Shown here piece after piece: positions 19,465-47,121 of a stretch of DNA of 64,000 nt. The stretch's first letter is position 1. The number at the start of each line of letters is the position of its first letter. This stretch comes from Agrobacterium vitis. Lineage in GTDB: Bacteria > Pseudomonadota > Alphaproteobacteria > Rhizobiales > Rhizobiaceae. The stretch covers positions 930,001 through 994,000 of the forward strand of contig NZ_CP146242.1 of NCBI RefSeq assembly GCF_037039395.1. The letters run 5' to 3'. The notes under the pieces are model-generated. The model had not been told where the DNA came from, did no database searches, and worked only from the letters and a program-made list of their open reading frames with translations. A program made the translations under genes and the position numbers.

Positions 19465-19505
19465 GCCATCGAGATCCAATCGTTGCAAAAATCGCAACAG
19501 ATTCC

Positions 19506-19520
19506 CAACTATTATTGCAA
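19506..19520 (+). promoter_or_regulatory. Shared 15-bp motif, copy A (upstream of the YcaC gene)
   Basis: CAACTATTATTGCAA, one of three 15-mers upstream of three island transcription units; 11 positions are invariant, consensus CAAYWATTRTYGCAA. A small inverted repeat GTTGC/GCAAC lies just before it (19482-19498). Operator role is inferred. Confidence 0.4.
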
Positions 19521-19694
19521 TTTCGCACTGTGCGGCGATGGCCTACTTTTGATTTCAGCAGCCAAGGCAACGTGTGGACGAAAACACCGAGGTCGAACCT
19601 GCCACACGAAGCCCTTCACGAGCGCCGCGACAGGATGTCTGGCTGCTCACCAACCTGCCGCATCAGCGGTCCAACAACCAAAAAGGAACTGACA

Positions 19695-20384: not shown

Positions 20385-20452
20385 AAGGCGCACGGCCGCT
20401 CCCCTCAGTGAGCTTTGGGGAGCGGTCCGTCCAACCCGAAGAGGAGAACCCC

Positions 20453-20740
20453 ATGAAACTCTATCTAATGTCTCTCGGTGCAGGCCTGCTGGTCGGGATT
20501 GTCTACAGCCTGCTGCAGGTGCGCTCCCCCGCGCCACCAATCATTGCCCTTGTCGGTCTTTTCGGCATTCTACTGGGCGAACAGGTCGTGCCCTTCGCGA
20601 AAATTCTCTGGGCCAAGGAACCGGCAGCCGTCTCCTGGCTGAACCATATCAAGCCGCATATGTTCGGACACCTGCCTACAGGCAAGATCGCTGCCGTAAA
20701 AGCTGCAGATCGACAGCCGTCTCAAGAACAGCAGAGCTAA
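20453..20740 (+). CDS. XapX domain (DUF1427) small membrane protein
   Basis: 95 residues with two hydrophobic segments: KLYLMSLGAGLLVGIVYSLL and IIALVGLFGILLGEQVVPF, as in XapX/DUF1427 proteins, whose function is undefined. A polar C-terminal tail of about 40 residues follows, with HIKPHMFGHLP. Good ribosome site AGAGGAGAACCCC before ATG 20453. It lies 69 bases after the YcaC gene. XapX genes recur beside YcaC and amidohydrolase genes, which suggests a common role. Confidence 0.88.
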   Translation: MKLYLMSLGAGLLVGIVYSLLQVRSPAPPIIALVGLFGILLGEQVVPFAKILWAKEPAAVSWLNHIKPHMFGHLPTGKIAAVKAADRQPSQEQQS

Positions 20741-20820
20741 TTTACGCTGCAGGGAGAGAGGCCGGACCGGTTTTCTCATCCTGGCCCATCCTCCAAATCC
20801 ATATGACCAGGAGCGCCACC

Positions 20821-22698
20821 ATGTTTGCCGATCTCATTCTTCTCAATGGCCGCATCACCACTCTCGACCGCACCAAACCCACCGCCACTGCCGTTGCCAT
20901 CAAGGACGGAATGTTCATGCGGGTGGGCGATGACAAGGAGATTGCCGCCCTTGGCGGGCCGGAGACGAAGATTGTCGATCTCAAGGGCAAGCGCGTCCTA
21001 CCCGGCCTGATCGATAACCACACCCATGTCGTCCGGGGTGGTTTGAACTTCAACATGGAACTGCGCTGGGATGGCGTGCGCAGTCTGGCCGACGCCATGG
21101 ACATACTGAAGCGGCAGGTGGCAATCACACCTGCACCGCAATGGGTGCGCGTCGTTGGGGGCTTTACCGAGCATCAATTCGTCGAAAAGCGCCTGCCCAC
21201 GATTGAAGAGATCAATACGGTTGCGCCGGAGACGCCCGTCTTCCTGCTCCATCTCTATGACCGCGCGCTGCTGAACGGAGCCGCCCTTCGTGCAGTCGGT
21301 TATACGCGAGACACACCGAACCCGCCGGGTGGCGAAATCACGCGCGACGCCCAGGGCAATCCCACCGGCATGCTGCTGGCCAAGCCCAATGCAGGTATTC
21401 TTTATTCGACCTTGGCCAAGGGGCCAAAGCTGCCTTTCGATTACCAGGTCAACTCCACCCGCCATTTCATGCGCGAACTGAACCGTCTTGGCATCACCGG
21501 CGTCATAGATGCGGGCGGCGGCTTCCAGAACTATCCCGACGATTACGAAGTTATCCAGAAACTGGCCGATGAGGGCCAGATGACGGTGCGTCTTGCCTAT
21601 AACCTCTTCACGCAGAAGCCGAAGCAGGAAAAAGAAGACTTCCTCAACTGGACCGCTTCGGTCAAATACAAGCAGGGCACCGATTATTTTCGCCACAACG
21701 GAGCCGGCGAGATGCTGGTGTTTTCCGCCGCCGATTTTGAGGATTTCCGCCAGCCGCGGCCGGAGATGGCACCGGAGATGGAAGGCGAGCTGGAAGAGGT
21801 CGTGCGCGTCCTTGCCGAGAACCGCTGGCCCTGGCGTCTGCACGCGACCTATGACGAGACCATCACCCGAGCGCTTGACGTCTTCGAGAAGGTCAACAGG
21901 GACATTCCGCTGGAGGGGCTGAACTGGTTCTTCGACCATGCAGAAACGATTTCCGAACGCTCCATCGACCGCATTGCCGCGCTCGGCGGCGGCATCGCGA
22001 CCCAGCACCGTATGGCCTATCAGGGGGAGTATTTCGTAGAGCGCTATGGCCATGGCGTGGCGGAAGCCACCCCGCCCATCCGCCGCATGCTGGAGAAAGG
22101 TGTCAATGTTTCTGCCGGAACGGATGCAACACGCGTCGCCTCCTATAATCCGTGGGTGTCACTGTCCTGGATGGTGACCGGCAAGACAGTCGGCGGCATG
22201 CAGCTTTATCCCCGCGCCAATTGCCTGGATCGCGAAACGGCGCTGCGCATGTGGACGGAAAAGGTAACGTGGTTCTCCAACGAAGAGGGCAAGAAAGGCC
22301 GGATCGAGAAGGGACAGTTTGCCGACTTGATCGTCCCGGACAAGGACTTCTTCTCTTGCGCGGAAGACGAAATCTCTTTCCTCACCTCCGAACTGACCAT
22401 GGTTGGCGGCAAGGTCGTCTACGGCGCCGGTGATTTTGCGAAACTCGATGAGAACCCTGTCCCGCCGGCCATGCCGGACTGGTCGCCGGTGCGCAAATTC
22501 GGCGGTTACGCCGCCTGGGGCGAGCCGGACGGCGCTGGACGCCATTCCCTGCGCCGCAAGGCTATCGTTTCCTGCGGCTGCGCCAGTGACTGTAATGTCC
22601 ATGGACACGATCATGCCGGTGCCTGGACCTCGAAGCTCCCAATCAAGGATCTCCAAGGCTTCTTCGGCGCCCTCGGCTGCTCGTGCTGGGCGGTTTGA
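20821..22698 (+). CDS. YtcJ-type metal-dependent amidohydrolase
   Basis: 625 residues. Amidohydrolase signatures: MFADLILLNGRITTLDR at the N-terminus, VLPGLIDNHTHVVRGG with the metal-binding His-x-His, WRLHATYDETI and WFFDHAE in the barrel, and VSAGTDATRVASYNPW near the end with the catalytic Asp. The family hydrolyses C-N bonds of amides or cyclic ureas; substrate unknown. The last 60 residues (CGCASDCNVHGHDHAG) are Cys/His-rich and not part of the usual barrel; they may bind metal. ATG 20821 follows CCAGGAGCGCC. Confidence 0.92.
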   Translation: MFADLILLNGRITTLDRTKPTATAVAIKDGMFMRVGDDKEIAALGGPETKIVDLKGKRVLPGLIDNHTHVVRGGLNFNMELRWDGVRSLADAMDILKRQVAITPAPQWVRVVGGFTEHQFVEKRLPTIEEINTVAPETPVFLLHLYDRALLNGAALRAVGYTRDTPNPPGGEITRDAQGNPTGMLLAKPNAGILYSTLAKGPKLPFDYQVNSTRHFMRELNRLGITGVIDAGGGFQNYPDDYEVIQKLADEGQMTVRLAYNLFTQKPKQEKEDFLNWTASVKYKQGTDYFRHNGAGEMLVFSAADFEDFRQPRPEMAPEMEGELEEVVRVLAENRWPWRLHATYDETITRALDVFEKVNRDIPLEGLNWFFDHAETISERSIDRIAALGGGIATQHRMAYQGEYFVERYGHGVAEATPPIRRMLEKGVNVSAGTDATRVASYNPWVSLSWMVTGKTVGGMQLYPRANCLDRETALRMWTEKVTWFSNEEGKKGRIEKGQFADLIVPDKDFFSCAEDEISFLTSELTMVGGKVVYGAGDFAKLDENPVPPAMPDWSPVRKFGGYAAWGEPDGAGRHSLRRKAIVSCGCASDCNVHGHDHAGAWTSKLPIKDLQGFFGALGCSCWAV

Positions 22699-22797
22699 GT
22701 TTCGCGAGTGTATCGGAAAATCCCGGCGGCAGAGAGTCTCTGCCGCCATGCATTGATTGAGCCCGACCGAACTATTTCATTCAACGCAATAAACTCG

Positions 22798-22812
22798 CAA
22801 TTATTGTTGCAA
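22798..22812 (+). promoter_or_regulatory. Shared 15-bp motif, copy B (upstream of doxX)
   Basis: CAATTATTGTTGCAA, 77 bases before the DoxX ATG and in a 190-bp gap after the amidohydrolase gene, where a new promoter is expected. Matches copies A and C at the invariant positions. Confidence 0.4.
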
Positions 22813-22888
22813 TTGTTGTTCGCCCATCGCGCCCGCACACTCCTCACATCAGAACCCTTCAAGTTTCTCAAGATCAGAGGAAATAGTG

Positions 22889-23329
22889 ATGTCTTCCCCT
22901 ACCCTTTCCAATCGGCATGGCGGTGTTTTCCGGAACTTGCTGACCCGGCCCCCATTGAAGACCCTGGCCCTCGTGGCCCTTTGCGCCGCTTACATTCAGG
23001 GCCCAATCACCAAGATTGCTGATTTTCAGGGTGCGATTGCTGAAATGGAACATTTCGGCCTGACCCCGCCGGCAGCATTTGCAGTGGTGGTCATCCTGTT
23101 CGAACTCACCGCTTCGGCCATGGTCATCACCGGCTACTTCCGCTGGCTGGCCGCGCTCGCCCTTGCGGGCTTCACCCTGCAGGCCACGCTGATTGCCCTG
23201 CGCTTCTGGGAGCTCGCTCCTGGGATGGACCGGATGATGGCGACCAACGCCTTTTTTGAACATCTCGGACTGGCCGGTGCATTCGTGCTCGTTGCCATCT
23301 CCGATCTTGCGAAAGGATCCAAGCCATGA
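22889..23329 (+). CDS. DoxX family membrane protein
   Basis: 146 residues with four hydrophobic segments (PLKTLALVALCAAYIQGP, AFAVVVILFELTASAMVITG, WLAALALAGFTLQATLIAL, HLGLAGAFVLVAISDLA) and the GPITKIADF motif typical of DoxX/SURF4-like proteins. Relatives take part in quinone or thiol redox in the membrane; function here is unknown. A GTG directly before ATG 22889 is an alternative. Its stop overlaps the MFS start (ATGA), so the two are translationally coupled. Confidence 0.9.
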   Translation: MSSPTLSNRHGGVFRNLLTRPPLKTLALVALCAAYIQGPITKIADFQGAIAEMEHFGLTPPAAFAVVVILFELTASAMVITGYFRWLAALALAGFTLQATLIALRFWELAPGMDRMMATNAFFEHLGLAGAFVLVAISDLAKGSKP

Positions 23330-24924
23330 GCGGCGCCAAATCCTCAACAGGCACATTCGCCCCGCTTTATCAGCCGGTTTTCGCGGTGCTCTGGGCGGCA
23401 ACCGTGCTCGGCAATACCGGCAGCTTCATGCGCGATGTCGCAAGCTCATGGCTGATGACCGATCTTTCCGCCTCGCCGGCTGCGGTCGCCATGGTGCAGG
23501 CCGCCGGGACTTTGCCGATCTTTTTGCTCGCCATTCCTGCCGGTGTGCTCACCGATATCCTGGACCGCCGCAAATTCCTGATCGCGGTGCAAGTGCTGCT
23601 AGCCTCTGTCAGTGCGACCTTAATGGTTCTCGCCAATACCGGTTTGCTCTCAGTGAGCGCCCTGATCGGCCTCACTTTCATGGGTGGCATAGGTGCTGCT
23701 TTGATGGGTCCGACCTGGCAGGCCATCGTGCCGGAATTGGTGAAGCGCGAGGATGTGAAAAACGCGGTTGCGCTGAACTCGCTGGGTATCAATATTGCCC
23801 GCTCCATCGGCCCCGCAGCGGGCGGCCTGTTGCTGGCTGCCTTCGGGGCGGGCGTCACCTATGGTGTGGATGTCGCCAGCTACCTTATCGTCATTGCCGC
23901 CCTTGTCTGGTGGCCGCGCGCCAGAAATGCCGATGATGCGCTGGCGGAGGGCTTCCTTGGGGCGTTCCGGGCCGGTCTTCGCTATACCCGCGCCAGCCGT
24001 CCGCTCCATGTGGTGCTGTTGCGCGCCGCCATTTTCTTCGCCTTTGCCAGCGCTGTCTGGGCCCTTCTCCCGCTCGTTGCTCGGCAAATGCTCGGCGGGG
24101 ATGCTGGCTTTTATGGCATCTTGCTCGGTTCGGTCGGTGCCGGTGCCATTGCCGGCGCCCTGGCCATGCCACGCCTTCGCACTCGCTTCGATGCGGATGC
24201 GCTGTTGCTCGGCTCTGCCGTTGTTACCGCACTTGTCATGGGTGCTCTGTCGCTGGCGCCACCGAAGTGGATGGCCATACTCGTCCTTCTCTTTCTCGGA
24301 GGAGCCTGGATTACTGCGCTCACGACGTTGAATGGCGCGGCACAGGCCATCTTGCCAAACTGGGTACGAGGCCGGGGACTTGCCGTCTATCTAACCGTAT
24401 TCAACGGCGCGATGACGGCGGGAAGTCTCGGTTGGGGTGCGTTCGGCGAAGCTGCGGGCGTGCCCGCCACGCTTCTGGTCGGGGCCGTCGGATTGCTGGC
24501 GGCAGGCCTCATCATGCATCGCGTCAAGCTGCCTTCAGGCGATATGGACATGGTGCCATCCAACCATTGGCCGGAACCTCTGGTCGCAGAACCCGTCGCC
24601 CATGATCGCGGTCCCGTATTGATCCTCATCGAGTACCGTGTCGAGAAACATCATCGTACGGCGTTCCTTCACGCCATCGACAAGCTCTCGGAGGAGCGCC
24701 GCCGCGATGGTGCCTATGGATGGGGTGTTACGGAAGATTCCGCCGATCCGGAGAAGATTGTCGAATGGTTCATGGTCGAATCCTGGGCGGAACATCTGCG
24801 ACAGCACAAGCGCGTGTCCAATGCCGATGCCGATATACAGGGCAAGGTGCTTGCCTATCACATTGGTCCGGAAAAGCCGGTCGTACGCCACTTCCTTACG
24901 ATCAGGCGGCCGGGCATGGTCTGA
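23326..24924 (+). CDS. MFS exporter (DUF894/EntS-like) with an extra C-terminal domain
   Basis: 532 residues. About 400 form a 12-helix MFS transporter: FAVLWAATVLGNTGSFMRD, the loop-2 motif GVLTDILDRRKFL, GPTWQAIVPELVKREDV, then six more helices to HRVKLP. Similar proteins export siderophores or drugs. The last 125 residues are soluble: PVLILIEYRVEKHHRTAFL, DPEKIVEWFMVESWAEHLRQH, an antibiotic-biosynthesis-monooxygenase-like ferredoxin fold. This fusion is known in a subset of MFS_3 proteins. The fragment at 14783 is a relic of a related gene. Confidence 0.92.
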   Translation: MSGAKSSTGTFAPLYQPVFAVLWAATVLGNTGSFMRDVASSWLMTDLSASPAAVAMVQAAGTLPIFLLAIPAGVLTDILDRRKFLIAVQVLLASVSATLMVLANTGLLSVSALIGLTFMGGIGAALMGPTWQAIVPELVKREDVKNAVALNSLGINIARSIGPAAGGLLLAAFGAGVTYGVDVASYLIVIAALVWWPRARNADDALAEGFLGAFRAGLRYTRASRPLHVVLLRAAIFFAFASAVWALLPLVARQMLGGDAGFYGILLGSVGAGAIAGALAMPRLRTRFDADALLLGSAVVTALVMGALSLAPPKWMAILVLLFLGGAWITALTTLNGAAQAILPNWVRGRGLAVYLTVFNGAMTAGSLGWGAFGEAAGVPATLLVGAVGLLAAGLIMHRVKLPSGDMDMVPSNHWPEPLVAEPVAHDRGPVLILIEYRVEKHHRTAFLHAIDKLSEERRRDGAYGWGVTEDSADPEKIVEWFMVESWAEHLRQHKRVSNADADIQGKVLAYHIGPEKPVVRHFLTIRRPGMV

Positions 24925-25012
24925 AGCCGTTCCGTCTCGACCACTGAGAGGGCCGAAGACGCGACTTCGGCCCCTGATTATTGCGAAAATGACAATCAAA
25001 TCGGAACCATTC

Positions 25013-25027
25013 CAACAATTGTCGCAA
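25013..25027 (+). promoter_or_regulatory. Shared 15-bp motif, copy C (upstream of the chloroperoxidase-like gene)
   Basis: CAACAATTGTCGCAA, 83 bases before the ATG at 25110 and downstream of the MFS stop. The distance to the start is close to that of copy B. Confidence 0.4.
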
Positions 25028-25109
25028 CGCATTCACTTCGGCATGATCTCCTCATTAGACGAAGACGCCTCGCCTGATGAGATCAAAGACAACTCAAAGG
25101 GCCGCGCTG

Positions 25110-26090
25110 ATGACCTCTGAATTTTTTCCCATGACCCGTCGCAACGTTCTCACCACGACAGCCACGATGGCGGCGGCAAACGCGCTTCTTCCCGTATTTC
25201 CCTCTGCAGCACTTGCTGCTTCAACCACCACATTAACCGACGGAGACAAGACAATGGCATATGTTACCACCAAGGACGGCGTTGACATCTTCTACAAGGA
25301 TTGGGGCCCGAAGGACGCCCAGCCAATCATGTTCCACCACGGCTGGCCGCTGTCCTCTGATGATTGGGATGCTCAGATGCTGTTCTTCCTCTCCAAGGGC
25401 TTCCGCGTCATCGCCCATGACCGCCGCGGCCACGGCCGCTCTGCCCAGGTGTCTGACGGCCACGATATGGACCACTACGCCTCCGACGCCTTCGCCGTGG
25501 TCGAGGCACTCGACCTTAGGAATGTCGTGCACATCGGCCATTCCACCGGTGGTGGCGAGGTGGCCCGCTACGTGGCAAACCATGGTCAACCGTCTGGTCG
25601 CACCGCGAAAGCCGTTCTGGTTTCCGCTGTTCCGCCGATCATGGTGAAGACAGCATCCAATCCGGAAGGTCTGCCGATGGAAGTGTTCGACGGCTTCCGC
25701 TCCGCCCTCGCCGCGAGCCGCGCCCAATTCTTCCGTGACGTTCCGGCAGGCCCCTTCTACGGCTTCAACCGTGATGGCGCGAATGTGCAGGAAGGCGTGA
25801 TCCAGAATTGGTGGCGTCAGGGCATGATGGGCAGCGCCAAGGCCCACTATGATGGCATCAAGGCTTTTTCTGAGACCGATCAGACCGAAGACCTGAAGAC
25901 CATCACGCTGCCGACGCTGGTCCTGCATGGCGAAGACGATCAGATCGTTCCGATTGCCGACTCTGCCCACAAGGCTATCAAGCTTCTGAAGAACGGGACG
26001 CTCAAGACTTATCCCGGCTTCTCGCATGGCATGTTGACCGTCAATGCCGATGTGCTGAACGCCGATCTCCTGGCCTTCATTCAGTCGTGA
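25110..26090 (+). CDS. Tat-exported alpha/beta hydrolase, non-heme chloroperoxidase-like
   Basis: 326 residues. Signal with twin-arginine motif (MTRRNVLTTTATM, hydrophobic stretch, SAALAA) then a haloperoxidase-type hydrolase: TTKDGVDIFYKDWG, FHHGWPLSSDDWD, HDRRGHGRS, nucleophile GHSTGGGE, acid in LHGEDDQIVP and His in GFSHGM. The catalytic triad is complete. Such enzymes are esterases that can make peracids in vitro. The mature region is very like cytoplasmic homologues that begin MAYVTTKDG; a second ATG at that point (25254) could yield a cytosolic form. Confidence 0.9.
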   Translation: MTSEFFPMTRRNVLTTTATMAAANALLPVFPSAALAASTTTLTDGDKTMAYVTTKDGVDIFYKDWGPKDAQPIMFHHGWPLSSDDWDAQMLFFLSKGFRVIAHDRRGHGRSAQVSDGHDMDHYASDAFAVVEALDLRNVVHIGHSTGGGEVARYVANHGQPSGRTAKAVLVSAVPPIMVKTASNPEGLPMEVFDGFRSALAASRAQFFRDVPAGPFYGFNRDGANVQEGVIQNWWRQGMMGSAKAHYDGIKAFSETDQTEDLKTITLPTLVLHGEDDQIVPIADSAHKAIKLLKNGTLKTYPGFSHGMLTVNADVLNADLLAFIQS

Positions 26091-26925
26091 CAGTCTGAAT
26101 ATTCGCCAATTGAGGCCGCAGCATCATCGTGCCGCGGCCTCACGCACGCGGCTCACCCAGAAGGGCGAGCCTTGAGCTACTGCCAGGGCGCTAGCAATGA
26201 ATGCCCTGTATTTGCTTCCCATTCATGTATCAGCCAGTCTTCCATCCAGTCGCCACGGATCGTCCTGCTATTCGTCAAGCACACGTCGATCTTAATCGCC
26301 GCTACATCCGCTGAGCGTGGATGCGTCTGACCAAGCGCGATATGGAAGCTGTCCGCTTAGATTCCCCTTGTCGCATGCCATTTCTTTCCGGGGTTTGTGC
26401 CAGCCTGAGGTTCCATTTTACGACCAGCTACTCCCTCCTCACCGGGGGATGTTAAGCGAAAAGCGGGCGGACAGGCGCCGTGAAGCCCGCCGCCGGGGCC
26501 TATGTCCGCTTCCAGGCAAGCGCGATGACGCACCTCTATGACCGACATGAAGGCACAATGCTGCCACGCGAAAATGCTTGCCTCACCTCCGGTTTGGCGC
26601 TGCCGAACGGAAATTATTACCGCTGTTCCGCCATATTGACGTCAGCCCAAAGCCGGGGCACAAAGATGGCATCCACGGTCGCTCGCGGCGGGAAAACATC
26701 GGGAAAACAAAGAGAACAGCTCTAAGTCTTAGAAATAATGCGATTATCTAGGCTCGCCAGCCATTTCTCCGAGACTACCCTGATTTCCTCGTTTCCGATA
26801 TGGGGCCGGGAGCCGACTGTCCGATGCTAGGGTGCCGAAAGGCGATAGCGGACATCCAACCATGTATTGGTACTGCTGTCCGAGTTTGACCCAAAGGCGG
26901 CCTCTTGTCAGAGGCAGCGATCCGA
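26091..26925. other. Gene-free stretch holding the right arm of element A
   Basis: No gene supported over about 830 bases. The part from about 26490 to 26770 is an imperfect copy of 29829-30182; the core 26646-26687 matches 30059-30100 at 41 of 42 positions. A degenerate att site follows at 26750. The remainder (26100-26480) shows nothing recognisable. Confidence 0.7.
26750..26770 (+). repeat. Internal att-like site (attM), degenerate
   Basis: AGGCTCGCCAGCCATTTCTCC matches the tRNA-Gln end plus flank (5044-5064) at 18 of 21 positions. It lies exactly 63 bases after the conserved arm block, as does the outer attR. This marks the junction of two tandem elements. Confidence 0.75.
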
Positions 26926-27315
26926 CTACTTGCCGATCTGGTTCAACTGCCGGTCGAAGTCTGCCGGATCGAAATAATCACGCCAGACCGTGATCACGCC
27001 GTTCTCGACGGTCACTGTCCCCATGACGGGCAGCGTGATCCGTCCGCCGTTTTCGTGGAGGAAGATGTCGATCCGCTCGTTCAGCACGACGTTTCCCGCC
27101 GCCGCGATTTGCACCACCTTCCAGTCGACAGTAAACTTGTTGCCGATGCCGAAATCGCGGTGGAATTTTCGAACGTTCTCGCGGCCGGTGATATCGGGAA
27201 AGGGCACGTTGTCGTAGAGGACGTCTTCGGCGAGCATGGCGATGGCCTCATCGATCCGATTGGCGCTCCAGTGGTCGAAAAACGTCTGTGCTATTTCGAT
27301 GGCTGTGGTGGACAT
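26926..27315 (-). CDS. SnoaL/limonene-epoxide-hydrolase-like protein
   Basis: 129 residues of the NTF2-like fold. The Arg-Asp pair in LNERIDIF and the Asp in WRDYFDPADF match the catalytic Asp-Arg-Asp triad of limonene-1,2-epoxide hydrolase, and the length is close. The substrate is not inferable. ATG 27315 has a clear AGGAG site. Last gene of a three-gene minus-strand operon with the SDR and NADP-binding genes; 51 bases separate it from the previous one. Confidence 0.82.
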   Translation of the reverse strand: MSTTAIEIAQTFFDHWSANRIDEAIAMLAEDVLYDNVPFPDITGRENVRKFHRDFGIGNKFTVDWKVVQIAAAGNVVLNERIDIFLHENGGRITLPVMGTVTVENGVITVWRDYFDPADFDRQLNQIGK

Positions 27316-27365
27316 AGCGGGCTCCTGAATTGTTGAATATTGGCGGCGCGGAAGGTTAAAAGACC

Positions 27366-27968
27366 TCAGTCGAATTTCACGAGGTTGTGCGCTGGCAAAG
27401 GACCGCCCGGAAACTGGACGAGGCGACTCCCAACGGCGAGGTCACCGAGATCGATGCCGAAGAAGCCAAGACGGTCGATCAGCGCGCCGATCTGCGCCTT
27501 GGCAGCGGCGTCGTCTCCGGAATAGAACAGCACGCGCTTGCCGCCTTCGCTGGTCGGGTCACCGGCGAGCACAGCGGCTGACAGATGGTTGAACGCCTTT
27601 ACGACCCGAGCACCAGGAACCATCTCGACGAACACATCCGATGACGTCCGACCGCCGAGGTCTGCGGGCTGGAACAGTGGCGCTTCGATCGGGTTGTTGG
27701 TGTCGACGACGATCCCACCGTTCCAGTTGGGCAGACCGGCCATCGCCGCAGGAAGCTTCGACCAATTGACGGCGATGAAGACGATGTCTTTCGATGCGGC
27801 TTCCTCGCGCGAGCCGGCGGTAATCGATGGGCCGAGCGAGGCGACGAGTTCGGCAAGCGTTTCAGGGCCGCGGCTGTTGGAAAGCGTGGCTGCGATGCCC
27901 TTCCGTGCGAGAGTTGTCGCGATGGCGCGACCAATGTTTCCAGCGCCGATGATTCCGATGGATGTCAT
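27366..27968 (-). CDS. NADP-binding oxidoreductase (F420H2:NADP-like, NpdG fold)
   Basis: 200 residues. Rossmann start SIGIIGAGNIGRAIATTLA with NADP-preferring SNSRGPETL, then DIVFIAVNW, VVDTNNPIE and VVKAFNHL. This resembles coenzyme-F420-dependent NADP reductase-like proteins, but rhizobia generally lack F420 (known), so another acceptor is likely. Ribosome site AAGGAGAC before ATG. 30 bases downstream of the SDR gene, with which it is surely co-transcribed. Confidence 0.85.
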   Translation of the reverse strand: MTSIGIIGAGNIGRAIATTLARKGIAATLSNSRGPETLAELVASLGPSITAGSREEAASKDIVFIAVNWSKLPAAMAGLPNWNGGIVVDTNNPIEAPLFQPADLGGRTSSDVFVEMVPGARVVKAFNHLSAAVLAGDPTSEGGKRVLFYSGDDAAAKAQIGALIDRLGFFGIDLGDLAVGSRLVQFPGGPLPAHNLVKFD

Positions 27969-27997
27969 GGATTTGTCTCCTTGTTGAGAATGGTCGA

Positions 27998-28756
27998 TTA
28001 GGCTGCCTGTCCGCCGTCGACGTTGAGTGTTGCTCCGGTGATGTAGCTGGCGTCCGGGCCGGCGAGGAATGCGACCGCTGCGGCAATGTCTTCCGGCTTG
28101 CCGTAGCGCCCAAGCGCCGCAAGTCCCTTCAAAGTGTCTGCAAAGGGGCCGTTTGCCGGGTTCATGTCGGTGTCGATCGCACCGGGCTGAATCAGGTTGA
28201 CGGTAATGTTGCGCGGGCCGAGATCACGGGACCAGCCGCGCGTATAGGCGCCCACTGCAGCTTTTGTTGCGATGTAGTCGGCCGCACCCGGAAAGGGAAT
28301 GTGAACCGCGCCCGTTGTCCCGATCGAGACGATCCGTCCGCCGTCTGACATCAGAGGAACAGCAGCGCGGACTGCGGCTGCGACACCCTTGACGTTGATG
28401 TCGATCTGTCGATCGAACGCCGTGATATCTGCATTCACGTCGCCGACGCCGCCGGTGATGAACACGCCTGCCGAATTGACCAGGATATCCAGCCGGCCGA
28501 ACGCGTCATGCGCCTGTCGCACAAGGTCCGCAACCTCTGACGCCTTCGCCTGATCCGCCTTGATTGCCAGAGACCGACGCCCAAGGGCTTCGACCGCGCG
28601 CACGATCTCCTCTGCCTTGTCGCCAGAGGTTGAATAGCTGAATACCACATCCGCTCCGTCATGGGCCAGGCGCTTGACGATGGCTGCGCCGATGCCCCGC
28701 GATCCGCCGGTCACGAGAGCCGCCTTGCCCAGGAGAGGCTGAGAATTCCGTGTCAT
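27998..28756 (-). CDS. Short-chain dehydrogenase/reductase (SDR)
   Basis: 252 residues, classical SDR: ALVTGGSRGIGAAI cofactor motif, LVNSAGVF, catalytic Ser in SIGTTG, YIATK catalytic Tyr/Lys, and PGAIDTDMNP near the end. The substrate is unknown. First gene of the operon; divergent from the LysR gene at 28866 with 109 bases between, the standard layout for LysR control. No lesions. Confidence 0.92.
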   Translation of the reverse strand: MTRNSQPLLGKAALVTGGSRGIGAAIVKRLAHDGADVVFSYSTSGDKAEEIVRAVEALGRRSLAIKADQAKASEVADLVRQAHDAFGRLDILVNSAGVFITGGVGDVNADITAFDRQIDINVKGVAAAVRAAVPLMSDGGRIVSIGTTGAVHIPFPGAADYIATKAAVGAYTRGWSRDLGPRNITVNLIQPGAIDTDMNPANGPFADTLKGLAALGRYGKPEDIAAAVAFLAGPDASYITGATLNVDGGQAA

Positions 28757-28865
28757 CTGTTTGCTCCTTACGATCTTTGATGACGCAGATATGCACGATC
28801 TATTTCTCTTTGATTAGCTGGAATTGGCTTGTTATATCTTCAACGATCACTTGAAAGGAGCGACG

Positions 28866-29792
28866 ATGGAAACACTGGCGAATCTTGAATCCTTTGTCCG
28901 CAGCGCGGAGCATGGCAGTTTCTCCGAAGCGGCCAGACGCATGTCGCTCACTCCGGCCGCCGTCAGCCGCAACGTCGCCATGCTGGAGCGCAACCTCGGT
29001 ATCCGACTGTTCCATCGCTCGACGCGGAAGCTCGTTCTCACCGAGGCGGGCGAGAGCTTCAGATTGGCGGTCTCCGATAGCCTCGACATCATACAGGCAG
29101 CGATCGGAGGTGCGGCTGTGCAGGGTGAGCCGAAGGGTGTGCTCAAGGTCAGCCTGCCGCCCACCCTCGGCGTGCTGCATATCCTTCCCCATCTGCCGGA
29201 GTTTCTGAGGCTCTATCCGGGTGTGAAGCCGGAATGTCATTTCGATGCCAGACCCGTCGACCTTGTGGCCGATGGCTATGATGCAGCGATCGGCGGAGGC
29301 TTCGATCTGAACCCGGGCATTGTCGCCCGAACGCTGGCTCCGGTTCACATCATTGCGGTGGCATCACCGGGCTATATCGCAGGTCGCGTGCCGCCGTTCG
29401 ACCCGGCGGGGTTGAAGGCCCTGGACAGCGTCGTGATGCGTTTGAGGCAGAGCGGACGCATCCGCCAATGGACGATGCGCGATGCGGCTGGCCGTGAGGC
29501 GGCTGCGGAGTTATCCGAAACTCTGGTCGTCAACGATCCCGCCGCCATGCTCAGTGCTGCCGTTCTAGGAGTGGGCGTCGCCCTAGTTCCGAAAGCAGAC
29601 GCCCAGCCTCATCTCAAGGCCGGGCGTCTGGTCCGGCTGTTGCCGCGGTGGTATTCCGATGCAGGCGCGATTTCGGTGTACTTCGCAAGCCGATCACAGC
29701 TCCCTGCAAAGACCCGTGTCTTTATCGATTTTGTGACGGCTCTGGCAGAGCGCAATCAGTGGTCAGAGCAGTTTGCCGGCAGTCTCGGGTAA
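28866..29792 (+). CDS. LysR family transcriptional regulator
   Basis: 308 residues. Winged HTH ETLANLESFVRSAEHGSF, SEAARRMSLTPAAVSRNVAML and LGIRLFHRSTRKLVLTEAG, followed by a periplasmic-binding-type effector domain with GVALVPKADAQPHL. Similar to the DsdC/AaeR-type group that controls a divergent oxidoreductase. The gene has a GAAAGGAG ribosome site. Likely regulator of the SDR operon (inference from orientation). Confidence 0.93.
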   Translation: METLANLESFVRSAEHGSFSEAARRMSLTPAAVSRNVAMLERNLGIRLFHRSTRKLVLTEAGESFRLAVSDSLDIIQAAIGGAAVQGEPKGVLKVSLPPTLGVLHILPHLPEFLRLYPGVKPECHFDARPVDLVADGYDAAIGGGFDLNPGIVARTLAPVHIIAVASPGYIAGRVPPFDPAGLKALDSVVMRLRQSGRIRQWTMRDAAGREAAAELSETLVVNDPAAMLSAAVLGVGVALVPKADAQPHLKAGRLVRLLPRWYSDAGAISVYFASRSQLPAKTRVFIDFVTALAERNQWSEQFAGSLG

Positions 29793-30162
29793 CCGCATTT
29801 GGCGCACTGGGGACACGATGCCGCCGCCGGGACGATGTCTGCTTCTGGGCAAGTACGGCACGACCTCTATGGCCGACAATGAGGCGCGAAGCGGGCGTGA
29901 CCACTAGCGAAGCAGACTGAAAGCTCTCAGGAACTCATGCCAGTGCTGCGGATGACAGAAATGAAGGCGTGAAGCGGCCAGCCGCGCAGCGACCGCACGA
30001 CGGTGAACTCGACCCAGAAGCGGAAATTATTTCCGCTCCACACTCATATTGACTGATGCCCAAAGCCAGGGCACAAAGATGGCATCCACGGTCGCTCGCG
30101 ATGGGAAAACAGAGAGAATTTCAAGGCTTATCGTCTAAGACATTGAAATCATGTGAGAATAT
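29793..30162. repeat. Right arm of element B (copy of the 26.5-26.75 kb arm)
   Basis: Two blocks match the arm before attM: 29829-29880 with 26492-26545, and 30027-30162 with 26617-26749. The interval between the blocks differs (about 147 against 72 bases). The 42-bp core at 30059-30100 is nearly identical. No gene is seen. Taken as the right end of an integrative element that ends at attR. Confidence 0.75.
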
Positions 30163-30179
30163 AGGTTCCCCAGCCAATT
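30163..30179 (+). repeat. attR: right direct repeat of the island
   Basis: AGGTTCCCCAGCCAATT, identical to the tRNA-Gln 3' end at 5044-5060. No tRNA surrounds it here, only the last part of the T-arm, so it is the displaced copy left by integration. Confidence 0.9.
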
Positions 30180-30329
30180 TTCTACAGCGTATTTCCTCGT
30201 TTTTATCCAGAACATACACAGTCAGTTGGGAACTTTGTTCTCGCTTGTAGAGCAATTCCGCTGGGGAGCACACGCGATCAGTAAATGCTGAAATAATTGA
30301 AAACTTGACGTATGCCCACAGCGACGAGG

Positions 30330-30720
30330 CAAAAGAGACAAAGATTTAATTGACGACTTGCTGCATGATTATTTTTCCATCAGAGAAAACTCGATGAAGC
30401 TCTTCAGAGCGAAAATATCATGATCGATTTAGCTGCATCCCTTGAAAAAATCAGACATTTAAATCTAAATAACCTCATACTTTCAATAACACACAAATAA
30501 TAATTTTACGCGACAACATTCCGGAAAATGTTGCTGATTATTGCGATGGTGTTTTGAAAAAACATGAAGGTGAACTTCAAAATCTTGATTCCGACAATCA
30601 ACCAATTAAGCATATTTTGACATAGGCTATGGAACTCGAAACTTTTACGTCTTCTAACGAAGATGCTGAAAAAATCGGATCTAAACCAAAGAATCAAAGA
30701 AAATCCTAATCATCGACAAT
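30330..30720 (+). pseudogene. Decayed AT-rich gene of unknown function
   Basis: Four consecutive short coding-like stretches in different frames: IDDLLHDYFSIREN, then IMIDLAASLEKIRHLNL, then ENVADYCDGVLKKHEGELQ, and last ELETFTSSNEDAEKIGSK followed by a stop. Each has sensible residue use but is broken by stops or frame changes. Base composition is much richer in AT than the neighbours. No family was recognised. Confidence 0.5.
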
Positions 30721-30785
30721 TCTGAGTTGACACTTCCGGCACAGCAAGCCAATCAAATGACATCTAAGGGAGGCCGGGGGCGTCT

Positions 30786-31085
30786 GTGGAACTAATAGGA
30801 TTATGGATTATTTGCGGAGCTGTGACCGCAATCATTGCCACGTCGAAGGGCCGTAGTGGCGTAGGCTGGTTTTTTGTCGGCTTGCTCATCTCCATATTTG
30901 GTATCATTCTTGTTGCCTGCCTTCCATCACTGAAGGAGACAGAAACACCATCTGTCCCAGAGGCAACTCGCATCCAGCCGACCAAGGCTTGTCCGGATTG
31001 CGGTGAAACCATCCTCCACATTGCCAATGTCTGCAAACATTGCGGCTTCCGCTTTGACGGAAGGCAACAAAGACATCCTGCCTGA
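30786..31085 (+). CDS. Small membrane protein with a C-terminal zinc ribbon
   Basis: 99 residues from a GTG start behind AAGGGAGG. Two hydrophobic helices (IGLWIICGAVTAIIAT, VGWFFVGLLISIFGIILVAC) are followed by a linker and a four-Cys zinc ribbon CPDCGETILHIANVCKHCGF (two CxxC pairs). Resembles small UPF0547/zinc-ribbon membrane proteins; function unknown. Next gene follows after 15 bases, so the two are probably one operon. Confidence 0.75.
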   Translation: MELIGLWIICGAVTAIIATSKGRSGVGWFFVGLLISIFGIILVACLPSLKETETPSVPEATRIQPTKACPDCGETILHIANVCKHCGFRFDGRQQRHPA

Positions 31086-31100
31086 TTCGAGGCTCCGCAC

Positions 31101-31415
31101 ATGAAGTACATATGGATTTCTATTGCCGTCGCTCTTGCCTGCGTTGCGGCTATCTATGTCGCAGGCATCCGCATTGTCGTCATACAGCCAATTGGGGCTA
31201 TACCCAAAGGCGTGACAGCAGTTGTCGCCGGAATTGAAAACGTCAATTTTGTTGATAGTCCAGACGCAATATGTATGCGTCGAATGGGAGGCGTCAGTCT
31301 TTTATGCCGAGGAATGACCGCAGCCGCTATCGCGAATAACAGTAAGATCCTCCTTAGACTTCCCTACAGCAGCATCCTGTTTAAGCTCTCCGGCGCACCA
31401 GACCTAGACAGTTAG
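31101..31415 (+). CDS. Small exported or membrane-anchored protein, unknown
   Basis: 104 residues. One N-terminal hydrophobic helix (IWISIAVALACVAAIYVAG) and then a soluble part with two cysteines (AICMRRMGG, SLLCRGM). Not recognised. It sits 15 bases after the zinc-ribbon gene; a role together with that protein is inferred only from spacing. Confidence 0.6.
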   Translation: MKYIWISIAVALACVAAIYVAGIRIVVIQPIGAIPKGVTAVVAGIENVNFVDSPDAICMRRMGGVSLLCRGMTAAAIANNSKILLRLPYSSILFKLSGAPDLDS

Positions 31416-31449
31416 TAGCTTCGCAACTTTGCGGACTGATTACCTCTGC

Positions 31450-31638
31450 CTAAAAACGGTCCGAAACGAGGACCGTTAAAGGTCCCAACTTGGATATTTC
31501 AGGCCGCCCGCTTACACCATCCGTCGAAGATTTCCGCCGTGAGATAGATGGCGTTGTATTTCGTTCTCGCAGCCTCCTATGTTCGGCGGCTCTGCTGCAT
31601 TTCTTGCTGCAATATTTCTGCGGTTTGACGTTCCTCAC
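31450..31638 (-). CDS. Possible small Cys-motif protein or gene remnant
   Basis: 62 codons with PQKYCSKKCSRAAEHRRLRE, a pattern seen in short zinc-finger-like segments of phage and HNH-associated proteins. The first pair of cysteines expected upstream is not evident. The C-terminal codons run into an intrinsic terminator. Probably a 3' remnant. Confidence 0.25.
   Translation of the reverse strand: MRNVKPQKYCSKKCSRAAEHRRLRERNTTPSISRRKSSTDGVSGRPEISKLGPLTVLVSDRF
31452..31477 (-). terminator. Intrinsic terminator (minus strand)
   Basis: Inverted repeat AACGGTCC/GGACCGTT with a short loop; read on the minus strand it is followed by a T-run. It could end transcription of the NDH-2 gene or of the small remnant above. 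Confidence 0.6.
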
Positions 31639-31693
31639 CTGAACACCACGGCAATGCTAGCATGCGTAACACAATGATATTACTTACATAATT

Positions 31694-32968
31694 CTAATTT
31701 CTCGCCTGCCCATCCCTCATGGTTTCTTTTTGAGTAATCAATCGGGCGCTATGCTGGCCGCTCAGGTAAATCCACAGCCAGCTCCATGCGACAGCAAGTC
31801 TTGAGCGCGTGCCGATGAGAAAATAGATATGCGCGAGACCCCATATCCACCATGCGAGACTTCCCGTTAACTTCACCTTGCCAAAGTCAACGATGGCCGC
31901 GCTCTGGCCGATGGTGGCAAGGCTACCTTGATGCCGGTAATGGAATGGCGCGGGAGCGGGTTTGCCTTTCAGTCTTGCCTTGATCACTTTGGCGACATAG
32001 GCGCCCTGTTGTTTGGCTGCGGGCGCAATACCGGGCACGGGCGTGTTATTGTCTTGGATGACCGACGCCGTGTCTCCGATCACAAAGACATCGGGCATTC
32101 CCGGAGAGGTCAGATCTTTTTCAACAACGACGCGACCCGCCCTGTCGGCGGGAACACTGAGCCAACGCGCCGCAGCTGATGCCTGAACGCCAGCCGCCCA
32201 GACGATGGTCCGGCTTGGAGTGAACTGTTCACCAATCTGAACGCCCTCGCTTGAGCACTGTGTAACGGGCTGCCCAAGACGAACCTCAACGCCGAGTTTT
32301 TCCAACACGCCTTGCGCATAGGCAGACAGTTCCGGCGCAAAGCTTGGCAGCACGCGCTGGCCCGCCTCGACCAGGATCACCTTTGTCCTGCGGGTATCGA
32401 TGGCGCGAAATTCCTTGGGGAGAGTCTTGTGCGCCAGCTCGGCGATAATACCGGCAAGCTCGACGCCTGTCGGGCCAGCCCCAACAATGGTAAAGGTCAA
32501 AAGCGCCTCACGCATCGCCGGGCCAGGGGTGGTTTCTGCCTGCTCGAAGGCCAGAAGGAGGCGGCGGCGAATTGTCGTGGCATCCTCAAGCGTCTTGAGG
32601 CCCGGCGCCACAGGCTCCCATTCATCGCGTCCGAAATAGGCATGGGTCGCTCCGGTGGCCAGAACAAGCGTGTCGTAGGATATGGATGCACCACTGCGTA
32701 ACATGACCTGCTTTGCAGCGACATCGACGCCGCCGACTTCACCCAGCAATGTCGAAACCTCCTGCCGGTCGCTATAGAGATGGCGAATGGGCCAGGCGAT
32801 TTCCGAGGTGGAGAGAATGGTTGTTGCAACCTGATAAAGAAGAGGTTGGAAAAGATGATGGTTTCGCCGATCGATCAGCGTTATCCGTGCTCCGCTGCCT
32901 TTGAGATCATGGACCAGCTGAAGCCCGCCAAAGCCACCGCCAACAACCACGACGTGATGATCACTCAT
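31694..32968 (-). CDS. ndh: Type II NADH:quinone oxidoreductase (NDH-2)
   Basis: 424 residues, single-subunit non-proton-pumping NADH dehydrogenase. FAD-binding VVVVGGGFGGLQLVHDL, quinone-side HHLFQPLLYQVAT, NADH-binding FTIVGAGPTGVELAG, and second FAD motif VFVIGDTASV followed by APAAKQQGAYVAK. The C-terminus (WWIWGLAHIYFLIG, WSWLWIYLSGQ) is the membrane-attachment part. Complete. The malate:quinone oxidoreductase gene is next upstream on the same strand; both feed electrons to quinone. Confidence 0.92.
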   Translation of the reverse strand: MSDHHVVVVGGGFGGLQLVHDLKGSGARITLIDRRNHHLFQPLLYQVATTILSTSEIAWPIRHLYSDRQEVSTLLGEVGGVDVAAKQVMLRSGASISYDTLVLATGATHAYFGRDEWEPVAPGLKTLEDATTIRRRLLLAFEQAETTPGPAMREALLTFTIVGAGPTGVELAGIIAELAHKTLPKEFRAIDTRRTKVILVEAGQRVLPSFAPELSAYAQGVLEKLGVEVRLGQPVTQCSSEGVQIGEQFTPSRTIVWAAGVQASAAARWLSVPADRAGRVVVEKDLTSPGMPDVFVIGDTASVIQDNNTPVPGIAPAAKQQGAYVAKVIKARLKGKPAPAPFHYRHQGSLATIGQSAAIVDFGKVKLTGSLAWWIWGLAHIYFLIGTRSRLAVAWSWLWIYLSGQHSARLITQKETMRDGQARN

Positions 32969-33096
32969 GATCGATCTTTCTCTTTTTAAACCGGGTGAAA
33001 TTCAGCTCAATCTAATCGCAGACCATGTGCAGAACATTACAGTTGAATTCTGGCCTATGATCTGGCCCACAACTTACGGCTATCGCACTGATGCTA

Positions 33097-33130
33097 CAGT
33101 ATTGTGTGCTTCACAAAACACACAATACTG
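33097..33130. promoter_or_regulatory. Perfect 12-bp inverted repeat upstream of ndh
   Basis: CAGTATTGTGTG (33097-33108) and its exact complement (33119-33130), 10 bases apart. It lies between the mqo stop and the ndh start, 129 bases before ndh. No T-run follows on either strand, so an operator is more likely than a terminator. Confidence 0.55.
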
Positions 33131-33209
33131 CATTCAAGGGCATATATTTATGTCAGCATCCGTCGAATGCACGCCACAGCGCGCATTCATTCTGGCGTAA
33201 TCCCAGAAT

Positions 33210-34922
33210 TTACAGCGCCATGTCCGGCACACGCTTGATGTCTCCCGCCGGTGCGCTGACGCCTGGCTTTGTTATTGCGGACATGTCGATTGCCGGTGGT
33301 GCGAGCGTCAGTTGAAGGCGCTCTGCTGTCGCCGCCCATTCCTTGGCCAGCATGTCGGGGTTTTCATTGAGGTTGACGCCATAGCTTGGCACCATGGTGC
33401 GCACCTTCTCCTGCCATTCCGGTGTCGCCAATTTCTCGGCAAACACTTTCTGAAGCAGATCCAGCATGATCGGGGCAGCCGTTGACGCCCCCGGAGAAGC
33501 GCCGAGCAGGGCGGCAATGCTGCCATCCTTGGCCGCCACAATTTCTGTTCCGAGCTTGAGAATGCCGCCCTTTTTGGCGTCTCTCTTGATGATTTGAACG
33601 CGCTGGCCTGCCTGCCAAAGGCGCCAATCCTCGGCCTTGGCATTGGGAAAATAGGCACGCAGAGCCTCATGCCGATCTGCGTCTGACAGCAAAAGCTGCC
33701 CGGCCAGATATTCGACCAGATCAAACTCATCATAGCCAACCTTCAGCATGGGCCAGATGTTTTCGAGCGTGATTGTCGCTGGCAGATCGAACAGCGATCC
33801 TTCCTTCAGGAACTTTGTCGAGAAGGTTGCGAAGGGGCCAAACAACAGGTGGCGCTTGCCTTCAAACACGCGGGTGTCGAGATGCGGAACCGACATCGGA
33901 GGCGCACCGGTGGAGGCCTGACCATAGGCCTTGGCAAAATGCTGGTTTGCAATCTCCGGCTTGTCGCAGACCAGGAAAGAACCGCCGACGGGGAAGCCCG
34001 CGTAATCATCGCCTTCCGGAATGCCGGCCATCTGCAGAAGGTGCAACGCACCACCGCCCGCACCGATGAACACGAACTTCGCCTTGACCGTGCTTGACGA
34101 TCCATCCTTGCGATTGGAGGTGCTGACGTTCCACGATCCGTCGCTGTTCTTTTCGATAGCCTCCACTTCGCTGGAGGTGTGCAGCGTAAAGTTTGGATGG
34201 CTCTTCAGATGCGTGACGTACTGGCGGGTCACTTCGCCCCAATCGGCGTCTGTGCCAAGGGGGCTCCAGGTGGCGGCGAGCTTCTGGGCGCGGTCACGCC
34301 CGTCCATCATCAGCGGCACCCATTCGGCAATCTTGTCATGATCGGTCGAAAACTGCATGCCGGAAAACAGCGGGCTTGCTTTCAACGCGTCAAACCGCTT
34401 GGCAAGAAACGCCGTGTTCTCATCGCCCCAGACGAAACTCATATGCGGGGTCGAGTTGAGGAACGAGCGCGGATTTTTCAGCACGCCAACGTCGACCTGA
34501 TGGGCAAGGAACTGGCGGGTGATCTGGAAGGCTGAATTGATCTCAATCGCCTTTTCGATATGCACATTGCCTTTCGCATCCATCGGCGAATAATTCAGCT
34601 CGGCCAGTGCAGAATGGCCCGTGCCGGCATTGTTCCAGCCGTTTGAGCTTTCCATGGCCACGGTGTCGAGCCGCTCGAGCATTTCAATCGTCCAGTTCGG
34701 CTCAAGTTGGCTGAGCAAAACACCCAGCGTCGCACTCATGATGCCGCCGCCGATCAACAGGACATCCACGGTTTTTTCCGGCGCTTGCGCCCAGCTGGGT
34801 ACAGAGGTCGCACCGAGAACGACAGCCCCTGTGGCCGCCGATCCCAAAAGCTGACGGCGGCTTAAAACCGGGCCTTGGACGCCTGCGGCAATGGATGGGT
34901 TGTCTTTACGATGAACGGGCAT
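33210..34922 (-). CDS. mqo: Malate:quinone oxidoreductase with a Tat signal
   Basis: 570 residues from ATG 34922 (a longer frame to 34991 has no better start). Mqo oxidises malate to oxaloacetate and reduces quinone. FAD motif [62 protein letters not shown] and [15 protein letters not shown] are all characteristic. Unlike the usual cytoplasmic-face enzyme it begins with a typical twin-arginine signal ([18 protein letters not shown], then SWAQAPE), predicting export to the periplasm. Divergent from the two-component system at 35270. Confidence 0.92.
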
Positions 34923-35269
34923 CTGGCACCTAATTGAGTTTAAGGGCGACTGCGATTGCCGTGGGCTTTGACGATCGCACCATATAGTCACAAGTCAGCA
35001 CGCGACTTTCTGTCGCGCAGGTACTGGGGTTTGACGCAGTGAAATGACAAAAGCCATTAAATAGAAATTTAAGAACGGCCATCCCGGTCCCGGACGTCAA
35101 GCCTGGCTATGTGCATCCGCGCGTTGAATCACACACCGCACAATTGCGCTATTTTTTGAAAAACCGTAGGAGTGAAACAGCAAACCGGTATTTGAAACGC
35201 GCGTGTGCTCTGGCAATAATGGATGACCTGCAACATCTATGGAGGTACCGACGCATCAAGGAATAGGCC

Positions 35270-35947
35270 ATGGCGAAAGTTATCCTTATCGAGGATGATG
35301 AAGATACGGCACACGATATCTGCGCTGAGCTGAAAGATTACGGATACGCCGTTGACTGGGAATCCGATGGTGCCAGGGGCCTTGAACGCGCAAGGAATGG
35401 CGGGGCTGATATCCTGATCGTTGACCGTATGCTGCCTGGTATGGATGGCCTTGCTGTGATTGATACATTGCGGCGCGAACAGGTTCGCACGCCTGTGCTT
35501 GTCATCAGCGCCCTCAGTGCCGTCAACGACCGTGTGCGCGGCCTGCGGGCCGGTGGCGACGACTATCTCACCAAGCCCTTTGCGATCCTCGAACTTGTAG
35601 CCCGCGTGGAAGCTCTCCTTCGCCGCCCCGCTGACATGTCGGCAAAAGTGCTGCGGGTTGGACCGCTTGAGCTGGATCTTCTGGAGCGCAGCGCTTGCCG
35701 CGGCGAAAGGGAGATTGAGCTTCTTCCCCGTGAATTCAAGCTGCTCGAATATATGATGCGCCATTGCGAACAGCTGCTCACACGAGGAATGCTGTTTGAG
35801 GAAGTCTGGAAATATAAATTCGTTCCCGATTCAAACCTCATCGATGTGCATATGGGTCGGCTCAGGCGAAAAATTGATCATCCGGGAGATCACCCCATGA
35901 TTTCCAATGTTCGTGGAGAAGGTTTTGTACTTCGCGCGCCCGATTGA
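35270..35947 (+). CDS. OmpR/PhoB-type response regulator
   Basis: 225 residues. Receiver: VILIEDDEDTAHDI, Asp in ILIVDRMLPGMDG, Lys in YLTKPF. Winged HTH: RGEREIELLPREFKLLEYMM, LIDVHMGRLRRKID, ISNVRGEGFVL. The expected Asp context VDRMLPGMDG is normal for the TctD/QseB-like group. Its 3' end overlaps the kinase gene by 41 bases, so they are co-translated. Divergent from mqo with 347 bases between the starts; regulation of mqo is plausible but not shown. Confidence 0.93.
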   Translation: MAKVILIEDDEDTAHDICAELKDYGYAVDWESDGARGLERARNGGADILIVDRMLPGMDGLAVIDTLRREQVRTPVLVISALSAVNDRVRGLRAGGDDYLTKPFAILELVARVEALLRRPADMSAKVLRVGPLELDLLERSACRGEREIELLPREFKLLEYMMRHCEQLLTRGMLFEEVWKYKFVPDSNLIDVHMGRLRRKIDHPGDHPMISNVRGEGFVLRAPD

Positions 35948-47107: not shown

Positions 47108-47121
47108 GTAGGATAAGCACC

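Follow-up and report, generated by a model that had tools for sequence, protein, structure and literature searches.

We examined a 64,000-nucleotide stretch of Agrobacterium vitis DNA (contig NZ_CP146242.1 of assembly GCF_037039395.1, forward-strand positions 930,001 to 994,000; hereafter the window, in whose own coordinates its features are given), where gene units lie in tandem behind a tRNA-Gln gene and two of them close in similar right ends. The tRNA gene (anticodon CTG; ARAGORN) occupies 4984–5057 on the forward strand, the strand of all attachment features described here, and its 3′ end is the primary attachment (att) site; the att core at this end, 5044–5064, was identified by its match to the other cores. 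It is followed by a left end that we term T-type (5058–5202; T profile match 5038–5198, E = 1e-46, the profile having been built from 11 sequences with the window among them), containing TGRTGCCC-type motifs at 5130 and 5143 (motif search). Next comes the N-terminal remnant of a DUF6538-type tyrosine integrase (5203–5437, forward strand; residues 1–69 of the recombinase P0001 at 87%), cut by an insertion sequence (IS). Full-length relatives of this gene occupy the corresponding place in other genomes. The IS spans 5438–8027 between 31-bp inverted ends (5438–5468 and 7997–8027; inverted-repeat search), with an IS110-family transposase inside it (6413–7441; Pfam); the outer IS is presumably IS3-like. 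Its ends are 94% alike over 31 nt, and a matching target duplication was not seen by eye.

The cargo of the tRNA-proximal unit (8036–26599; gene annotation) encodes a sensor kinase, AraC regulators, response regulators, an isochorismatase, an amidohydrolase, an MFS protein and an alpha/beta hydrolase. The unit closes in a right end (R-end; 26600–26749, R profile E = 2e-46) and a core (26750–26770). Beyond this core lies a 3.4-kb unit (26771–30012; annotation, with a G033 counterpart at 98.1%), whose genes for an LEH/SnoaL-like protein (26926–27315), an F420-type NADP oxidoreductase (27366–27968) and an SDR (27998–28756) are on the reverse strand and whose LysR gene (28824–29792) is on the forward strand. 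It closes in turn in an R-end (30013–30162; E = 3e-58 with the R profile, which has 30 seeds including this very copy) and in the outer core (30163–30183). Each unit is bounded by direct repeats of the tRNA 3′ end, the cores at 5044, 26750 and 30163.

A sequence-only reading of this DNA had reported that a 42-bp block at 26646–26687 recurs at 30059–30100 with one mismatch in 42, each copy ending 63 bases before a core (26687 to 26750; 30100 to 30163). Recomputation bore this out, together with the reported match of the 26750 core to the tRNA end (5044–5064) at 18 of 21 positions; the outer core matches at 19 of 21. Likeness extends beyond the block: 98 bp align ungapped at 83%, a search of the genome aligned the right ends at 75% over 187 query bases (E = 4e-25), and a second piece farther left aligns at 79% over 61 bases. 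Each block belongs to an island right end of ~150 bp, which closes in the core and also holds a palindrome (GCGGAAATTATTTCCGC, 30020–30036) and an inverted TTTCAA...TTGAAA pair. There is no third copy in the 6.04-Mb genome, where the remaining matches have E values of 0.1 or worse, the best being the tRNA-Gln end itself. Since the two stretches match significantly only each other genome-wide, they are neither a chance likeness nor a dispersed repeat in this genome. Motifs of the TGATGCCC type lie near both ends (5130, 5143 and 30054) and, with the 42-bp block, are candidate arm sites.

Two relatives, both representatives of different species rather than strains, carry the same chromosomal flanks. 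G033 shares window 1–5151 and 31667–47319, minus a gap at about 40.5–42.4 kb. It also shares 25398–30177 at 98.1%, with the 3.4-kb unit at the identical spacing of 3413 bp; its fetched stretch has no counterpart of 5151–25398, and an extra C-type cassette (see below) and a T relic lie outside. G015 has neither window segment between its flanks and no right end, only the tRNA, a T end, recombinase residues 1–239 and IS-like sequence. Units are present in some of these genomes and absent in others with the same flanks, and tandem accretion in the window is supported. Two earlier claims hold: the two sites are island right ends with specificity for the 3′ end of tRNA-Gln, and the 3.4-kb LysR-SDR unit, which G033 has although its fetched stretch lacks window 5151–25398, is separate from the 21.7-kb one and outside it.

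The same reading counted only two elements, and here it fell short. At 30157–30263 the window has a W-type left end (W profile E = 4e-29, from three seeds including the window; the likeness to G039 had been seen earlier by BLAST), belonging to a third island that is otherwise lost, and it is followed by a low-GC remnant (30264–31666) to which nothing in the fetched stretches of G033 or G015 corresponds. Foreign DNA does not end at 30163. Because a W-type left end follows the 30163 core and the chromosome common to relatives resumes only near 31667 (94% in G033), at least three accreted elements have left traces in the window. The age difference proposed from a more decayed inner site we reject: the cores match the tRNA end at 18 and 19 of 21, the 26750 variant is also present in G033, with one difference over the whole site, and so the variant was inherited with its unit and is no clock.

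From 8036 onward the window resembles, at 78%, the beginning of a C-type cassette that starts at 436901 in G025; the remainder of the integrase gene, one right end and one left end were therefore probably lost to the IS or to a deletion, and the outer IS itself may mark an IS-mediated deletion of these parts. Since the head gene is broken, the array in the window is probably frozen unless a recombinase is served in trans.

Right ends in other genomes

The outer right end with its core matched 45 of 150 genomes (own, weak and core-only matches included), many of which have several copies on one contig in one orientation. A second R-end query, run on 394 genomes of the family, matched 34 of them, the own one among these, in 18 of 109 genera. 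At most five candidates per genome were scored in the first search and at most two in the second, making copy numbers lower bounds. The R-end was also matched by 24 plasmid records from Rhizobium, Sinorhizobium, Peteryoungia, Agrobacterium and Neorhizobium.

The 112 rows of the first search gave 89 same-genus copies after 23 were dropped (two from the own genome, nine from other genera and 12 short, weak or core-only). Fifty-three are on the contig bearing tRNA-Gln(CTG), 31 are on other contigs and five are in genomes without a tRNA hit. Of the 53, all but one are downstream of the tRNA gene, on the same strand and within 135 kb of it. Of 63 same-genus genomes, 59 have a single exact copy of the tRNA-Gln 3′ end, two have a pair and two have none. 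Two contigs (G062:C6 and G053:C44) have two exact ends 17–18 kb apart; in each, one copy precedes a W-type left end, as if a W island had carried the whole tRNA end.

These counts bear on the notion that the block is a dispersed intergenic repeat or a small RNA gene unrelated to attachment. The block is intergenic and partly palindromic, as that notion would have it, but there are no other copies in the genome, 26400–30400 has no Rfam match, the core follows the block in the seed and C-type alignments, and 52 of the 53 same-contig copies are behind tRNA-Gln. The sequence-only reading had itself named a dispersed repeat as the finding that would count against attachment; we looked for one and found none. 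We give the notion practically no credence, and it is refuted for this genome and the sampled relatives. A phage origin of the arm was also dropped, 26600–26800 having no match in 50,697 phage records.

Arrays of nine genomes and further stretches were mapped with profiles for the R-end, the three left ends (T, C and W), the recombinase and the tRNA. The usual order is tRNA-Gln, T, recombinase, R, C, cargo, R, C, cargo, R. Arrays have 2–9 sites; 13 mapped arrays contain 53 R-ends and 40 intervals, with a median of 9.7 kb and a range of 3.4–35.8 kb. G032 has nine R-ends across about 109 kb and G054 has seven.

Head recombinase and left ends

Often beside tRNA-Gln, at the array head, is a ~700-aa DUF6538-type tyrosine recombinase. 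Six of the eight mapped copies that match P0001 end to end are directly behind tRNA-Gln (G054, G039, G049, G035, G005 and G040:C34), and in the genome collection seven of nine recombinase loci have the tRNA directly before the gene. The gene starts 146–159 bases past the tRNA end. Full-length carriers include Rhizobium sp. AQ_MP and Rhizobium sp. GN54; partial recombinases are found in Peteryoungia aggregata LMG 23059, Agrobacterium albertimagni AOL15 and Xaviernesmea rhizosphaerae MH17 (at a contig end). Scoring of the best 7993 candidates yielded 122 relatives, and the named ones among the 120 listed belong to Rhizobiaceae genera, plus one Pseudochelatococcus.

P0001 matches the Pfam families DUF6538 (25.0 bits) and PF00589 (21.0 bits) below both cut-offs; some relatives carry both in precomputed annotation. 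Residues R509, K540, H613, R616 and Y650, which we take to be the tyrosine-recombinase catalytic set, are invariant in nine sequences and conserved in at least 90% of 48, and the head enzyme shows the R, K, HxxR and Y residues of tyrosine recombinases. A PDB sequence search with it returned nothing relevant. In the array stretches of 10 genomes, PF00589 exceeded its cut-off nowhere except in a W-type integrase of G012 and a remnant in G039; the head enzyme scores below that cut-off in G054 and G039, and a further sub-cut-off match is just outside the G017 array. PF00239 had no match in the mapped stretches of twelve genomes.

Recombinase relic and sites co-occur. A recombinase relic was detected in 19 of 33 site-bearing genomes (arm match at E = 1e-10 or better; 33 of the 63 same-genus genomes) versus three of the 30 others (Fisher p = 7e-5, uncorrected for relatedness). 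The integrase unit's own right end is of the same family as those of the cassettes (G057, G076).

Two classes of left end sort by place. Among 63 tRNA-Gln 3′ flanks from 61 same-genus genomes, 34 have T (in 24 the match spans at least 150 positions and in the others it is partial), three have W, 26 have none of the three and none has C. In contrast, a C-type left end follows 45 of 106 distinct R-ends (107 sites, one S. terangae record being present twice; seed loci of genomes already included were left out). The difference from 0 of 63 is significant (Fisher p = 2e-11, uncorrected for relatedness), with the C-type count made by an identity rule and the assignments at tRNAs made by profiles built from the very same loci. 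The C-type left end is ~175 bp long and closes with an inverted copy of the core, which we call J; the many cassettes that begin with it have no recombinase gene. With CCAGGTTCTCCAGGC as their core, C-type units would fail to restore the acceptor end of the tRNA, and this may be what excludes them from it.

This sorting bears on plain serial accretion, in which once-autonomous integrase islands accumulated, older ones decayed to cis-mobilizable elements (CIMEs) and no enzyme serves the array. Several observations suit it: head recombinases are broken in the window, G057, G042, G040:C12, G017 and G015; T-type relics lie inside arrays or at their ends in G025, G032 and G033; and other island types occur at tRNA-Gln, W in G012 and further ones in G010 and G025. 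What it leaves unexplained is that one conserved left end without a recombinase relic recurs after 45 of 106 R-ends and at no tRNA, when under random decay the relics would be mixed and C-type ends would turn up at the tRNA too. We regard this account as possible, though we doubt it.

J is present in 42 of the 45 C-type sites, nearly always at +148 to +155, where shuffled sequences would be expected to give 0.002 per sequence; among the other sites it is found in 10 of 62, or in 9 of 61 when the doubled record is left out. Its left partners are C-blocks, T ends at recombinase codon ~4 (G003, G014, G022), codon ~27 (G042), residue ~192 (G040:C12) and shorter T pieces (G009, G017). Such a constant right side with several left partners suggests that J is either a second point of crossover or a place where deletions are frequent. 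A coding remnant (LKRVSQNWLGT in the commonest form of J) was dropped by eye, some joins being out of frame or stopped. As for a hairpin-folded junction, 34 C-type sites gave no convincing consensus fold and fold z-scores were weak, only −1.5 and −1.3 (20 of the 45 C-type sites, 30 shuffles each). At three sites (G010 2323781, G032 1958886 and L145/T136 25104) an internal deletion took the core, joining the R-end to a later part of the left end.

In G012 the W type directly follows tRNA-Gln and has a 362-aa PF00589 integrase frame next to it. Several of the 26 flanks without T, C or W resemble further island left ends (e.g. G010, G025 and G031). tRNA-Gln seems to be a hot spot for several integrase families.

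Cassette exchange and the proposed mechanism

Whole cassettes have been exchanged between arrays. Among the 107 sites, 17 pairs, not all independent, share the upstream cassette end (87–99.6%) and not the next cassette, five pairs share the downstream cassette and not the previous one, and two share both sides (G033 with the window, and the doubled record). Plasmids of R. rosettiformans and of P. desertarenae have one cassette start in common (iolG to purU, 93%), in both cases following an R-end and with unrelated neighbours before it. These two cassettes (L050 24615 and L146 19994) differ in C-block subtype, GAGCAAT in one and GAAGAAT in the other.

Where exchange breaks is less sharp, and since it is, homologous recombination between sites also fits. 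In that account units would be exchanged mainly by RecA-type recombination between the ~150-bp ends, a site-specific step having only founded the array. In its favour, the directly oriented site copies show roughly 75–97% likeness, mosaic breakpoints are scattered between about −110 and +140 relative to the core, and the three internally deleted sites join R to a later left-end part. It does not explain the one-way orientation from the tRNA, the placement of C and T, or a J with several unrelated left partners, and we consider it unlikely. A crossover exactly at the core was rejected: the jump in likeness at +5 mostly disappeared for downstream-sharing pairs when the background was C-type only.

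The explanation that we favour, with moderate confidence, is that the repeated arm and core are the right attachment end of a family of islands specific for tRNA-Gln(CTG), which accrete in tandem, with the recombinase at the head joining the cassettes. The head consists of the tRNA gene, a T-type left end and, where intact, a recombinase gene of ~700 aa and DUF6538 type, with multi-gene cassettes behind it about 3–36 kb apart, each closing in a ~150-bp right end and core. The recombinase would bind core and arms. The integrase unit would insert at tRNA-Gln, rebuilding the tRNA, and its right end would then offer a core to further cassettes that need no enzyme gene of their own; circular recombinase-less cassettes would be joined at cores behind right ends. 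We infer that the recombinase acts on C-type cassettes because right ends are shared and because recombinase and sites co-occur (19 of 33 versus 3 of 30); circular intermediates and the crossover point are likewise proposed parts of this scheme.

A number of observations weigh against it. Excision was not seen. Two of the eight full-length recombinases (G079, G001) are behind another core, 11–13 kb from the tRNA, the relic is absent from 14 of 33 site-bearing genomes, and the long arrays of G032 (nine sites, the longest) and G010 have no recombinase detectable genome-wide with an N-terminal query. The structure model of the enzyme is weak (predicted local distance difference test score, pLDDT, of 66; 47 for the first model) and its best PDB match by Foldseek, Cre, has an E value of 0.037. 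As for the sites, 31 of the 89 counted copies are on other contigs (draft breaks or plasmids), some of them on plasmids, one R-end copy is 1.8 Mb from tRNA-Gln, and J stands behind a T-type start at five of 63 tRNA flanks. Breakpoints are pinned to the core in one pair only (G033 and the window); G040 and G057 diverge already 109 bp upstream, and three of the five downstream-sharing pairs regain likeness only near +140.

Known systems and cargo

As far as its sequences tell, the system looks like tandem accretion of tRNA islands in an integron-like layout, with the mechanism a proposal. The nearest published case found is that of the ssrA-specific islands of Dehalococcoides. According to the excerpts of PMC3146451 at hand, these form tandem runs with direct repeats of the 3′ end of an RNA gene that is present in one copy, and all lie no more than 100 kb downstream of it; some have the integration module next to attL, and others are discussed as cis-mobilizable or fixed. 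The present arrays are alike in placing tandem units behind a single RNA gene. They differ from what those excerpts describe in having one tyrosine recombinase gene at the head rather than a six-gene module with a serine recombinase (DsiB, CcrB-like), a distinct class of left end on units that lack a recombinase, and long ends, about 150 and 175 bp, that are conserved. Accretion of integrative and conjugative or integrative and mobilizable elements, as outlined in part of PMC5704250, stacks units without integration genes that keep attL and attR (CIMEs) by site-specific recombination. Our arrays likewise look like stacked units that retain their ends and may have lost integration genes. Unlike the CIMEs outlined there, they reach nine sites in a row and share a C-type left end that looks specialised rather than randomly decayed.

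Integron attC sites have two inverted cores each. The sections of PMC8618304 available describe integrons with a tyrosine recombinase gene at one end, an adjacent primary site, tandem recombinase-less cassettes and integrase-free clusters. Shared with them are the head recombinase, the primary site beside its gene, the recombinase-less cassettes, clusters that lack an integrase and two inverted cores per junction. Unlike integrons as so described, the arrays have many-gene cassettes of several kb, a ~330-bp junction and no clear support for a conserved folded site. Nor is the head enzyme an IntI-type integrase beside attI; it is a ~700-aa recombinase of DUF6538 type docked at a tRNA gene, compared with IntI by description only. 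A bolder reading, which we put forward tentatively and think improbable, is an independently evolved second integron-like system, with a tRNA-docked DUF6538 landing pad capturing and shuffling operon-sized, recombinase-less cassettes that have two inverted cores at their junctions, and with J, at the cargo start, as a second crossover. If true, the joining of J to several kinds of left partner, the recombinase gene included, would mean that deletions which the system inflicts on itself, between J and secondary sites, account for the frequent breakage of head recombinases.

Tycheposons, as described in the available part of PMC10872708, are also tRNA-bordered and cargo-rich with a tyrosine recombinase, three traits that the arrays have in common with them; a recurring ~150-bp right end or a cassette array is not described in that part, the comparison being by description only. 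A word search of the accessible text of PMC11476347 gave no match for tRNA-Gln, Gln, DUF6538 or array. Among open-licence papers, which offer no proof of novelty, we found no title or abstract describing such an array, and no paper on DUF6538 with integrase.

On the reading that we favour, two repeats in one chromosome would lead to a mechanism across Rhizobiaceae, one that could explain how metabolic, regulatory and restriction gene blocks are added and swapped at a fixed place and on large plasmids. These ends vary little enough for cassettes to be mapped automatically in public genomes, and they suit a simple recombination assay of whether a non-integron enzyme runs an integron-like array.

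Cargo was scanned in 134 of 190 open reading frames (ORFs) of at least 200 aa from six arrays, with ORFs above 700 aa excluded and G042, G057 and part of G032 left out. The commonest families (top 25 of 117) are response regulators, LysR, solute-binding proteins, histidine kinases and MFS/ABC transporters. No conjugation module was noted in the annotated stretches viewed or among the top 25 Pfam families, no dedicated search for transfer genes having been made. PADLOC matches in arrays were few, from five families. One plasmid cassette of R. johnstonii 3841 (L051, on pRL11) encodes a type I restriction system; this cassette accompanies a T-type left end with recombinase residues 2–141, and the 30 kb read there contain no tRNA.

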